Shown one piece after another: positions 9,623 through 33,171 of a stretch of 34,424 nucleotides of DNA. The position numbers and the translations under genes are program-made. Each line of letters opens with the position of its first letter. Positions within the stretch are counted from its first letter, which is position 1. This stretch comes from Aestuariivirga sp. (GTDB lineage: Bacteria; Pseudomonadota; Alphaproteobacteria; Rhizobiales; Aestuariivirgaceae). The notes beneath the pieces are model-generated. The model had not been told where the DNA came from and searched no databases. It worked only from the letters and a program-made list of their open reading frames with translations. The stretch spans positions 1-34,424 of the forward strand of contig NZ_JADCDB010000018.1 in NCBI RefSeq assembly GCF_020252395.1. Reading direction: 5' to 3'.

Positions 9623-10372
9623 TCATTCCCCGCCGAGCTTCGCCATCACCTCGTCGGGAATGCCGGCGTTGGAGAACACGATCTGCACGTCGTCGTCCTC
9701 GTCCAGCGCATCGACGAGCTTCATCAGGCTTTCGGCCTTTTCCTGGTCGACCGGGGCCATGGTCTGGGGCTTCCACACGATCTTGACGGAGGCCGCCTCG
9801 CCGAATTTCCCGGCGAGCACGGACGAGACCTCGCCGATCGACTCGAAGGAGCAGGTGACGGTGTGGCCGGTCTCGTCGGACACCACGTCGTCGGCGCCGG
9901 CATCGATCGCCGCTTCCAGCATCGCGTCACCTGACGCTTTCGCCGCCGGATAAACGATCTCGCCCACGCGCGCGAACATGAAGGCCACCGAGCCCGATTC
10001 ACCCAGGTTGCCGCCGAACTTGGCGAACAGCGAGCGGACGTTGGAGGCGGTTCGGTTGCGGTTGTCGGTCAGCGCCTCGACGATGACGGCAACGCCACCC
10101 GGGCCATAGCCTTCGTAACGGACATTGTCGTAGTTCTCGGAGTCGCCGCCCGACGCCTTCTTGATGGCGCGCTCGATATTGTCCTTGGGCATGCTTTCGG
10201 CCCGCGCGTTCTGGATCGCAAGGCGCAGGCGGGCATTGGCATCGGGGTCCGGCAGGCCCGCCTTGGCGGCCACGGTGATTTCGCGCGACAGCTTGGAGAA
10301 GATCTTGGCGCGCACCGCGTCCTGCTTGCCCTTGCGGTGCATGATGTTCTTGAATTGCGAATGGCCGGCCAT
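9623..10372 (-). CDS. yebC: YebC/PmpR family protein (TACO1-like)
   Basis: The 249-residue protein begins [18 protein letters not shown], the invariant opening of the YebC/TACO1 family, and carries [39 protein letters not shown] and an acidic C-terminal region ([16 protein letters not shown]). YebC proteins have been described as transcriptional regulators and as ribosome-associated factors that help synthesis of difficult peptide motifs; which applies here cannot be told from sequence. The start at 10372 is fixed by family homology and by a GGGGG run just upstream; an in-frame start 57 bp earlier is rejected. It heads the ruv operon, the arrangement seen in many proteobacteria. Confidence 0.96.
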
Positions 10373-10507
10373 TGAACCCCCGGATCGGATGCGAAATGTA
10401 TCGGGCCGCCTTATAGACAGGCAACCCACACGGAAACAAGGCCGCTTAACCTTCCTTTAAGTCCGCCCGGCCAAGCTCTTCGCGTCAGGTGTGTGGAGTT
10501 GGCAGGA

Positions 10508-15785: not shown

Positions 15786-15815
15786 CAAATCCCCGGCGAA
15801 GAAGACGATCAGAGC

Positions 15816-15977
15816 GGCGAGCCACCATGGGCCGTGAGTGACGTACGATCCCGGGTCCCTACAAGTGTAGGTGGGCGCCGTTTGGGCAAGGCCACGGCCA
15901 AGCCCAGGGACAGCTCCCATTCGGAAACGCATAGGCCCCAGGGAAAAAATGTCAGCTCACGCACCGGGCAGCCCGCC
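15816..15977 (-). ncRNA. ssrS: 6S RNA (SsrS), RNA polymerase-holoenzyme mimic
   Basis: Called from structure and synteny. Between zapA and the cyclo-ligase gene, the position of ssrS in many proteobacteria, the minus strand can fold into one long rod. GGCGGGC (15977-15971) pairs with GCTCGCC (15822-15816); GTGAG-C-TGAC (15960-15951) pairs with GTCACTCAC (15842-15834). A wide central bubble follows, with a small hairpin in its 3' strand (CCTACACTTGTAGG) as typical of 6S RNA, and an apical stem GGGC..GGCC/GGCC..GCCC. The length is about 162 nt. The 5' end coincides with the predicted start from the promoter at 15985-16013. 6S RNA binds the housekeeping holoenzyme and down-regulates promoters in stationary phase. 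Exact ends are estimates. Confidence 0.8.
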
Positions 15978-30158: not shown

Positions 30159-30899
30159 TTACGCCTCGTCCTGCTGGCCGCGCTTCAGAGGCTTCAGCTT
30201 GGCGAAGACCGAGTCGGCGTCATATTCGGGTTCCGCCTCGCGCGGCTTCGGTTCGGAGGGCGCGAAGGTTGGCTCGTCCCCGGCATGGGCCGCGGCATGG
30301 GCGGCCGTGCCTTCCACTTCCGCCGCCGGGATCAGTGTGCGCGCCGGCGCCGATTCGTTCGCCGGCTTCCCGGCCTTGCGCGCCGCCTTCTGCACCGCGA
30401 AATCGAGGTCGAGCTGCGAGCAGATGCCGAGCGACACGGGATCGACCGGCTTGATGTTGGCGGCATTCCAGTGCGTGCGCTCGCGTATGGAGGCAATGGT
30501 CGACTTCGTCGTGCCCACCAGTTTCATAACCGCCGAGTCCGGCAGCTCCGGGTGGTAGCGCAGCAGCCAGGCGATGGCGTCCGGCCGGTCGCCGCGGCGC
30601 GACACCGGCGTGTAGCGCGGACCCGAGGTCGACTTCTGCACCTGAATGTTGACCTTGGATTCGAGGATCTTGAGGCGGTATTCCGGGTCCTTCTCGCCCT
30701 TCTCGATTTCCTCGCGCGTCAGCTGGCCGCCGGTGACCGGGTCCATGCCCTTGATGCCGGCCGCCACGTCGCCGTCGGCGATGCCCTTCACCTCAAGCTC
30801 ATGCAGGTGGCAGAAATCGGCGATCTGGCGGAAGGTGAGCCCGGTGTTCTCGACCAGCCACACGGCGGTGGCCTTGGGCATCAGCGGTGTGCGGGACAT
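30159..30899 (-). CDS. trcR: TrcR, DUF1013 cell-cycle transcriptional regulator
   Basis: A 246-residue protein of the DUF1013 family (MSRTPLMPKATAVWLVENTGLTFRQIADFCHLHELEVKGIADGDVA; then KSTSGPRYTPVSRRGDRPDAIAWLLRYHPELPDS and the motif VSLGICSQLDLDFAVQKA). DUF1013 proteins are named TrcR in alphaproteobacteria, where they are described as cell-cycle transcriptional regulators that bind RNA polymerase. The N-terminal helix-turn-helix-like segments (TFRQIADFCHLHELEVKGI and AVMKLVGTTKSTIASIRERTHW) fit that role. The C-terminal 80 residues are variable. The start has AAGGAG 10 nt upstream; a candidate promoter is at 30970-30998. Confidence 0.88.
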   Translation of the reverse strand: MSRTPLMPKATAVWLVENTGLTFRQIADFCHLHELEVKGIADGDVAAGIKGMDPVTGGQLTREEIEKGEKDPEYRLKILESKVNIQVQKSTSGPRYTPVSRRGDRPDAIAWLLRYHPELPDSAVMKLVGTTKSTIASIRERTHWNAANIKPVDPVSLGICSQLDLDFAVQKAARKAGKPANESAPARTLIPAAEVEGTAAHAAAHAGDEPTFAPSEPKPREAEPEYDADSVFAKLKPLKRGQQDEA

Positions 30900-32144: not shown

Positions 32145-32330
32145 ATGAGTTTCGAAGACCCGCCGAAGAAGCCCTCCGGCGCCATGCTGGGAGAGAACCT
32201 CGACCTCCTGTCGGTGGCCGAACTGGAACAGCGCGTGCGTGACCTCGAGTCGGAAATACAAAGGGTGAGGGCGGCGATCACGTCGAAACAGGCCTCGAAA
32301 AACACCGCGGACGCTTTTTTTCGCACTTAA
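32145..32330 (+). CDS. DUF1192 small protein
   Basis: A 61-residue protein: SFEDPPKKPSGAMLGENLDLLSVAELEQRVRDLESEIQRVRAAI and a short basic tail. This is the recognisable DUF1192 form, with a proline-rich head and a helix that starts LLSVAELEQRV. The function is unknown; it is found next to rcdA-like genes in alphaproteobacteria. AAGGAG (32130-32135) supports the ATG at 32145. Too short to say more. Confidence 0.85.
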   Translation: MSFEDPPKKPSGAMLGENLDLLSVAELEQRVRDLESEIQRVRAAITSKQASKNTADAFFRT

Positions 32331-32372: not shown

Positions 32373-32402
32373 TTAAGGTTTGGGTAAGGAATTAACTATA
32401 TG
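32373..32402 (+). promoter_or_regulatory. CtrA-like box and promoter of the rcdA-linked sRNA
   Basis: TTAA (32373-32376), seven bases, and GTAA (32384-32387) match 7 of 8 bases of the CtrA consensus TTAA-N7-TTAA. A TATATG -10 (32397-32402) lies 18 bp after TTAAGG, so the box takes the place of the -35 element as in CtrA-activated promoters. Transcription would start near 32408. A second TTAA is at 32392-32395. Confidence 0.5.
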
Positions 32403-32404
32403 AC

Positions 32405-32512
32405 CAGTCTTGTAATCCTTGACCGGATTGCTCTGAGTGGTTCTTCACCACTCTGTTTGACGCCTCCCTGTTTGAAACTCTCAAGCCGCGCGCCTTTTGC
32501 GCGGCTTTTTTT
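32405..32512 (+). ncRNA. Small RNA upstream of rcdA, three hairpins with intrinsic terminator
   Basis: I cannot assign this RNA to a named family. The sequence predicts three stem-loops: AATCC-TTGACC-GGATT (32414-32429), GAGTGGT-TCTTC-ACCACTC (32435-32453, perfect), and a terminator AAGCCGCGC-loop-GCGCGGCTT with seven T (32483-32512). Between the second and third is a single-stranded run, including CGCCTCCCTG (32461-32470), which is complementary to Shine-Dalgarno sequences and is a common target-pairing element in alphaproteobacterial sRNAs. There is a plausible promoter just upstream. No open frame in it looks like a protein. Start is estimated; the 3' end is firm. Confidence 0.65.
32483..32512 (+). 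terminator. Rho-independent terminator of the sRNA
   Basis: A perfect 9-bp stem (AAGCCGCGC / GCGCGGCTT), 7-nt loop (GCCTTTT), and T7 tract at 32506-32512. This is the strongest terminator in the window, and it ends no protein-coding gene: the DUF1192 stop is 150 bp upstream, after a separate promoter. Confidence 0.9.
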
Positions 32513-32538
32513 GGGTCGCGCTCTGGCATCGCTCTTGC

Positions 32539-32568: not shown

Positions 32569-32646
32569 TGACCTCGGGTGTAACCCGGTTCATGATCCGG
32601 CGAAGCTCCGTATCGTGACAAACGTGAGCCCCGAGGAATGCCCCAG

Positions 32647-33171
32647 ATGCCGCCGTCCAAAGCCTCCCCCGTCACCGTCGATTTCATGTCGCGCTTCACG
32701 GCGTCGGAGCAGTTCGACAAAGTGTTCCGGGAGGGCATGAGTCTGGTCGAGGAAACCGCCAATTACCTCGATGGCCCCGGCCGCCAGGATGCCCGCCTGC
32801 TCGACCGCCATGGCGCCGTCGCCTACGCCACCGAAAGCATGCGGCTGACGACCAGACTGATGCAGCTCGCTTCGTGGCTTCTCCTGCAGCGCGCCATCGG
32901 CGCGGGCGAAATGAGCCAGGACGACGTGAAGAAGGAGCGCCACCGCATCTCGCTCGCCGACATCGGGCGCGGCAAGCCGCTGAACGGATCGGAGCAGCTG
33001 CCCGCCGCCTTGCAGGACATCATCGAACGTTCGCTGTCGCTGCACCAGCGCGTGCTGAAATTCGACGCCATGCTCAACATGCAGGCCAAAGCCGAAATCG
33101 CAGCCCCCGCACCGAGCCCCGTGTCGAACCAGCTCGACCGGCTGGCCGCGGAGTTTGGCGTCCGCAGCTGA
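32647..33171 (+). CDS. rcdA: RcdA, DUF1465 regulator of CtrA degradation
   Basis: A 174-residue helical protein of the DUF1465 family: VTVDFMSRFTASEQFDKVFREGMSLVEETANYLDG, AVAYATESMRLTTRLMQLASWLLLQRAIGAGEMS, RHRISLADIGRG, and SLHQRVLKFDAML. In Caulobacter RcdA, with CpdR and PopA, delivers CtrA to the ClpXP protease at the cell pole. The helix content and the disordered C-terminal tail (IAAPAPSPVSNQLDRLAAEF) fit that structure. The ATG at 32647 is chosen because GAGGA ends 9 nt upstream; the ATG at 32638 would have no room for a ribosome-binding site. A CtrA-like box lies 260 bp upstream in the adjacent sRNA promoter. Confidence 0.85.
   Translation: MPPSKASPVTVDFMSRFTASEQFDKVFREGMSLVEETANYLDGPGRQDARLLDRHGAVAYATESMRLTTRLMQLASWLLLQRAIGAGEMSQDDVKKERHRISLADIGRGKPLNGSEQLPAALQDIIERSLSLHQRVLKFDAMLNMQAKAEIAAPAPSPVSNQLDRLAAEFGVRS

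Follow-up and report, generated by a model that had tools for sequence, protein, structure and literature searches.

Comparative sequence evidence links the BjrC1505-type small RNA upstream of rcdA to a CtrA-type promoter box

Introduction

The small RNA (sRNA) family BjrC1505 is said to have been originally reported by Madhugiri et al. in 2012; in our literature search no regulator, target or rcdA link was found for it, and the name was met only in a list. An sRNA of Sinorhizobium meliloti was described as Sm84, about 80 nt long with a predicted sigma70 promoter (Valverde et al. 2008, PMC2573895), and as SmelC671, 100 nt by sequencing (PMC2873474), a discrete RNA of about 80-100 nt in both sources; no promoter motif is entered for SmelC671 in Table 1 of PMC7143759. 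The tags flanking Sm84 are SMc03988 and SMc03989, and SmelC671 is placed at 2986421-2986520 in strain 1021. SmelC671 and ReC71 of Rhizobium etli share a conserved single-stranded CUCCCUGU flanked by variable hairpins, of which the 3' hairpin is a terminator, and the family occurs in several families of the order (PMC3927594). The passages available to us on Sm84, SmelC671 and ReC71 contain no link with CtrA, and in a search of the main texts of largely open-access papers no publication was found that connects CtrA with BjrC1505 or SmelC671.

Other sRNAs have been placed in a cell-cycle setting. According to the available text, CcnA of Caulobacter has a predicted CtrA site, a C-rich loop and a cell-cycle context, as does the sRNA described here, but its gene lies at the replication origin and its targets are ctrA and gcrA (PMC8959179); the likeness is drawn from the descriptions. 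GspR (PMC5928217) and EcpR1 (PMC4414408) of Sinorhizobium are tied to cell-cycle genes, as is proposed here for BjrC1505; both are other S. meliloti transcripts (SmelC775 and SmelC291), set apart from the present sRNA by their descriptions, and GspR was found in Sinorhizobium only.

CtrA has also been reported at rcdA itself. In the available text of a ChIP-seq study of S. meliloti, CtrA was bound in the rcdA promoter region, and the expression of rcdA was unchanged on CtrA depletion (Pini et al. 2015, PMC4433202). For agrobacteria, several transcription starts of rcdA are described, along with possible CtrA sites located further upstream than in Caulobacter (PMC10469942, available passages).

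Results

The window, that is the whole 34,424-nt stretch of Aestuariivirga sp. DNA analysed here, carries on its plus strand a DUF1192 gene (32145..32330) followed by rcdA (DUF1465; NCBIfam ProtaseAdptRcdA; 32638..33171). The original prediction placed an unannotated sRNA gene between them. The gene itself was confirmed by an Rfam match, fold, conservation and covariation, but the RNA is not new: the gap matches BjrC1505 (RF02356) at 32375-32514 on the plus strand with 69.5 bits (cut-off 50), over model positions 1-140 of 140, and the match includes the linker and the terminator described below. The sRNA is therefore a member of this known family, present in one copy in the genome. The GcvB family (RF00022) scored 23.1 bits, below its cut-off of 42. 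AbcR1/2-type sRNAs combine an anti-Shine-Dalgarno run with a terminator, two features shared by the sRNA here; the 13 Rfam matches obtained at the locus up to E 10 included no AbcR-type family.

Of 397 genomes examined in the order, 331 had an RF02356 match at E<=0.001 (288 of them above the cut-off), and among the matches listed nearly all genomes had a single one. None of 14 control genomes matched. A class-wide draw gave matches in 25/240 genomes, two of them from the sRNA's own order, including the source genome itself. With a covariance model built for this study, the RNA was placed on the plus strand ahead of rcdA in 82 of 85 loci, of which 36 had themselves served as rows of the model; no RNA match was obtained at L082 (Oceanicaulis) or at L083 and L091 (Maricaulis). 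In loci chosen by the RNA, rcdA lay downstream on the same strand in 30/30 of one set (L002-L031) and in 25/27 of a second set from the order (22 strictly, and three whose open frame starts upstream), so that the predicted adjacency to rcdA holds in most of the in-order loci inspected.

The rcdA locus of S. meliloti (L112) carries the RNA between DUF1192 and rcdA (29.3 bits with our model, E 4e-5), and from motif, strand order and size this Sinorhizobium counterpart is very likely Sm84/SmelC671. Like Sm84/SmelC671 and ReC71, the sRNA here has a single-stranded CUCCCUGU between hairpins and a 3' terminator, and it shows the features by which the SmelC671 family was delimited (Reinkensmeier 2011): in that family CUCCCUGU is single-stranded and lies between hairpins that vary, of which the one on the 3' side is a terminator. 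The sRNA here differs in that hairpin 2, adjacent to the linker on its 5' side, does not vary but is conserved among the aligned relatives.

Based on the RF02356 match and the fold, the transcript spans 32409..32512 (+), with a predicted start accurate to within a few bases. It comprises hairpin 1 (32412..32431), which varies in sequence with compensatory changes in relatives; hairpin 2 (32435..32453, GAGTGG...CCACTC), nearly invariant in 38 aligned relatives; the highly conserved linker GTTTGACGCCTCCCTGTTT (32455..32473), identified from alignments and fold and containing the anti-Shine-Dalgarno run CCTCCC; and an intrinsic terminator (32483..32512), found by scanning and made of a 10-bp stem (32483-32507) with compensatory changes in relatives and a T tract. 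The fold energy of 32405-32520 is -42.2 kcal/mol, with shuffled sequences averaging -27.85 (z -4.53, 0/200 shuffles). In the fold model CUCCC is exposed, with an unpaired probability of 0.98-1.0, and the rest of the linker is partly paired, in agreement with the three hairpins and exposed run read from the DNA at the outset. The terminator, proposed as the strongest in the window, indeed has the most pairs (10) among the 20 terminator-like sites listed for the window, 9 in one listing and 11 in another.

Covariation was assessed on the alignment of the 38 relatives; RNAalifold on an automatic alignment, in which some terminators were cut, had given a poor structure, and the later alignment was used instead. 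In the three-hairpin structure 89.0% of the cells were paired (83.9 in shuffles), and changes on both sides were seen in 47 cells; shuffles gave 15.2 (0/500), and sliding the structure gave at most 11. Two of the five covariation measures were at shuffle level, namely pairs with a double change (8 vs 6.4) and further pair types (24 vs 22.8). The changes on both sides fell in four pairs of hairpin 1 and four pairs of the terminator, which thus covary; hairpin 2 had none and hardly varies, and is hence silent on covariation. Neither conservation nor covariation of the hairpins in relatives spoke against the original prediction. GTTTGACGCCTCCCTGTT was invariant in the 38-relative alignment and nearly so across the 27 RNA-chosen loci of the order, and the linker was reduced in some lineages, to CTCCCTGTTTT in S. 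meliloti and Shinella and to GCCTCTGT in Methylobacterium. A small open reading frame across the linker is unlikely: the frame reading GTT TGA was closed by a stop in 83/84 loci, the other two were open in 84/84 and had a start further upstream in 47 and 33 loci, respectively, and no frame had a start in all 84.

A CtrA-type box, TTAA-N7-GTAA, was read from the sequence and recovered by a motif scan at 32373..32387 (+), in the -35 region of the predicted sRNA promoter; it agrees with TTAA-N7-TTAA in 7/8 letters. In the window TTAA-N7-KTAA occurs at two places (32373-32387 and 10446), as three strand matches with 0.02 expected. The candidate -10 region, TATATGAC (32397..32404, +), is weak, matching TATAAT in 4/6 letters, and a generic sigma70 scan listed no promoter at the sRNA start, as would be expected if the box replaces the -35 element.

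Conservation of the box was examined in 111 loci, 80 chosen by the RcdA protein and 31 by the RNA. The linker and a T tract were present in 107 (L082, L083, L091 and L105 were dropped), and thinning left 90 non-redundant loci (70 protein-chosen and 20 RNA-chosen). The best box had at least 7/8 letters in 86/90 loci, with 9.0 expected from mononucleotide shuffles, and it lay 75-88 nt before the linker in 82/90. With dinucleotide shuffles and a narrower stretch the box was found in 83/90 loci against 8.9 expected; with dinucleotide shuffles and harsher thinning, in 45/50 against 4.5 and, at the harshest level, in 18/21 against 2.1. A control stretch inside the RNA gave a box-like match in 2/90 loci. 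The loss in close relatives that would have undermined the box was thus not observed.

The RNA-chosen loci gave a similar picture, with a box in 30/30 of L002-L031 (2.5 expected) and a box of at least 7/8 letters in 26/27 in-order loci (1.3 expected), which represent 26 families and were picked from the best-scoring places listed, in a draw of 52 families, and from the class-wide draw. The RNA-chosen loci are somewhat biased towards the box, because the RF02356 model begins inside the box region, whereas the protein-chosen loci are not. Outside the order, 13 loci representing 11 families were taken from the 23 matching genomes that the class-wide draw gave there; 11 of these loci had the box (0.4 expected) and seven had rcdA downstream. 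A box of 7/8 letters was absent from one of the 27 in-order and two of these 13 loci. Four of the outside-order loci (L401, L402, L409 and L411) carried the sRNA and the box with no rcdA recognised downstream, recognition being by a profile of 27 RcdA proteins (E<=1e-4) within about 1.3 kb, which a very divergent rcdA could escape. The box was also present in L408, where the locus stops at the contig end, and L410 had neither box nor recognised rcdA. Since the box occurs without a recognised rcdA in those four loci, it seems to travel with the sRNA, and as judged from these comparisons the CtrA-type box seems to belong to the sRNA rather than to rcdA.

In 123 loci, selected by box score, both half-sites were kept (T98 T100 A82 A99 and T71 T96 A100 A85 per cent) above a spacer at 41-67%. 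In these loci, hexamers matching TATAAT in at least 4/6 letters peaked at offsets of 11 and 12 nt downstream of the box (47 and 40 loci, against 22 or fewer at other offsets). The predicted -10 element, weak in the window, is kept as a candidate, and the near-consensus CtrA-type box at -35 is upheld by its position and half-sites across loci. In Hoeflea (for example L093, L097, L099, L102-L104, L106, L108, L109 and L111), TTTACAAGTCTTTAC or a near variant follows directly after the CtrA box, giving a direct repeat TTTAC-N5-TTTAC in the sRNA promoter.

These data bear on whether CtrA is involved at all. The sRNA could instead be driven by sigma70, with the TTAA box bound by another regulator or conserved as an AT-rich part of the promoter; the available text on Sm84 does predict a sigma70 promoter (PMC2573895), the box in the window is imperfect, and an 8/8 box was found in only 20/90 loci in the narrow stretch. 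This explanation appears unlikely given the narrow position of the box, its excess over dinucleotide shuffles, and the retention of both half-sites 7 nt apart, above the spacer, in the 123 loci selected by box score. A ctrA gene is present in the source genome. We consider it highly probable that CtrA binds the box of the sRNA promoter and, with less assurance, likely that it activates the sRNA; as sequence evidence, the comparison is strong in tying a known sRNA family to CtrA.

The single-stranded state of CUCCC in the fold model makes anti-Shine-Dalgarno pairing the likely mode of action. Pairing was evaluated with the 22-nt linker alone as query and mononucleotide shuffles as control, and remained at shuffle level for the 5' regions of gcrA (24 loci, mean z +0.29), ctrA (21 loci, mean z +0.15) and rcdA (76 of the 80 named loci, mean z -0.06, two below -2); pairing of the CcnA kind with ctrA and gcrA was thus not found for the linker. 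Two of 26 gcrA loci (L142 and L144) and one of 22 ctrA loci (L162) were left out, L142 and L162 because they come from a genome without an RF02356 match (G003) and L144 as a split gene; L143, from another genome without a match (G008), was kept, and some gcrA starts were set by profile match and not by a verified start codon.

Places with ACAGGGAGG-N2-14-ATG in 26 genomes preceded 77 proteins of at least 30 aa, and the first 25 families listed for them included SBP_bac_1 (6), SBP_bac_8 (6), Peripla_BP_4 (4), Peripla_BP_6 (3), and Phosphonate-bd, OpuAC, DctP and SBP_bac_5 (one each). The control contexts AAC/CAA, sampled from the listed places, gave 71 proteins with SBP_bac_1 (10), SBP_bac_8 (8), Peripla_BP_6 (2), Peripla_BP_5 (2), DctP (1) and OpuAC (1) among the first 25 families; the families overlap. 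The share of solute-binding proteins was alike in both sets, and with no clear difference between target and control an AbcR-like excess of transporter targets was rejected. The long complement AACAGGGAGGCGTCA, with up to two mismatches, occurred at seven places in the own genome, including the sRNA itself, against four for the reversed pattern. The search for targets of the CCTCCC loop named none.

The lack of a target among the ctrA, gcrA and rcdA 5' regions, together with a linker that is conserved in much of the order over about 18 nt, a length beyond what a short seed requires, would suit an RNA that acts on a protein or on ribosomes as a sponge, the linker being a protein site and not an mRNA seed. 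CUCCC is single-stranded and complementary to the Shine-Dalgarno sequence, however, and the RNA ends in a U tail, which suits Hfq; we regard the sponge as improbable, and anti-Shine-Dalgarno pairing is retained as the likely mode of action.

The sRNA terminator ends 125 nt before the ATG of rcdA, and this interval holds an element, TGGC-N7-TTGC (32524..32538, +), that was found by motif scan. We take this to be the -24/-12 pattern of sigma54; rpoN is present in the source genome, and the element may serve rcdA as a promoter of its own. In the terminator-rcdA interval it was found in 57/76 named loci (0.24 expected), which had been selected by likeness to the source rcdA, and in 12/30, 8/27 and 0/13 of the L002-L031, in-order and outside-order RNA-chosen sets, respectively. 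Of 81 named loci, 24 lacked it, and 19 of these 24 had a CtrA box of 7-8 letters instead (4.5 expected), a box also carried before rcdA by 13 of the 57 loci with the element (4.1 expected). This second box, typically TTAACCCTTTCTTAA, follows the terminator in S. meliloti, in Sinorhizobium sp. K101, in Shinella and in most loci of Hoeflea; S. meliloti (L112) has two perfect boxes, a distal one ahead of the sRNA, about 310 nt before rcdA, and a proximal one between terminator and rcdA. The pattern suggests that the promoter type of rcdA changed within the order, the sigma54-type element having mostly been replaced by a CtrA box in the Rhizobiaceae loci inspected, and that rcdA is a neighbour with its own predicted promoter element.

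A regulated leader, in which transcription from the box would stop at the terminator or continue into rcdA under a signal, is very unlikely: although rcdA follows on the same strand in nearly all the RNA-chosen in-order loci (30/30 and 25/27), and agrobacterial rcdA is described, in the passages available, with multiple starts and a possible CtrA site further upstream than that of Caulobacter (PMC10469942), many loci have a promoter-like element between terminator and rcdA, the RNA and its box occur outside the order where rcdA was not recognised, and the homologs appear in print as discrete RNAs of about 80-100 nt (PMC2873474, PMC2573895).

The proposal that the sRNA feeds back on CtrA degradation found no support either, with no pairing above shuffles, an RNA that ends before rcdA and a separate promoter-like element in between; feedback via rcdA is possible but unsupported.

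Discussion

We favour, with moderate confidence, a reading in which the locus encodes a single-copy, trans-acting sRNA of the BjrC1505/SmelC671 type, with a promoter predicted to be bound and most likely activated by CtrA, and with a linker that probably acts as an anti-Shine-Dalgarno sequence. CtrA would bind the TTAA-N7-TTAA box at -35, most likely switching on a transcript of about 100 nt with a variable 5' hairpin, the conserved hairpin 2, the exposed linker that carries CUCCCUGU and, at its end, a Rho-independent terminator. This linker would probably pair with the strong Shine-Dalgarno sequences (GGGAGG) of mRNAs, which may then be translated less while CtrA is active, the sign of this effect being the one we infer.

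The RNA family was already known, and what is added here is its link with CtrA by comparative evidence. Being widespread and combining a conserved linker with a CtrA box, the sRNA is a strong candidate for the post-transcriptional arm that the CtrA circuit has so far lacked. The wider proposal, that in the Hyphomicrobiales and some related lineages BjrC1505/SmelC671 is an sRNA driven by CtrA since their ancestor, passing cell-cycle output to the translation of mRNAs with strong Shine-Dalgarno sequences and explaining part or all of the ChIP signal at rcdA in Sinorhizobium, seems to us evenly balanced. The box in the sRNA promoter offers one account of CtrA bound at rcdA with no effect on rcdA (PMC4433202, available text), and the agrobacterial sites further upstream (PMC10469942, available passages) fit the same picture. 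The account is not the only one, since in S. meliloti another perfect CtrA box stands nearer to rcdA, and an equation of the S. meliloti CtrA peak with the sRNA is weakened by this TTAACCCTTTCTTAA box downstream of the terminator.

Other features of the window were recorded as well. A minus-strand gene at 30159-30899, about 1.5 kb from the sRNA, encodes TrcR (PF06242; in Pfam a transcriptional cell cycle regulator), and a 6S RNA (RF00013, 71.2 bits) lies at 15815-15977 on the minus strand. The second place with a CtrA-type box, 10446-10460, is a palindromic perfect match, TTAACCTTCCTTTAA, located just upstream of a minus-strand ORF (9623-10429) whose translation we take to resemble a YebC-family protein.
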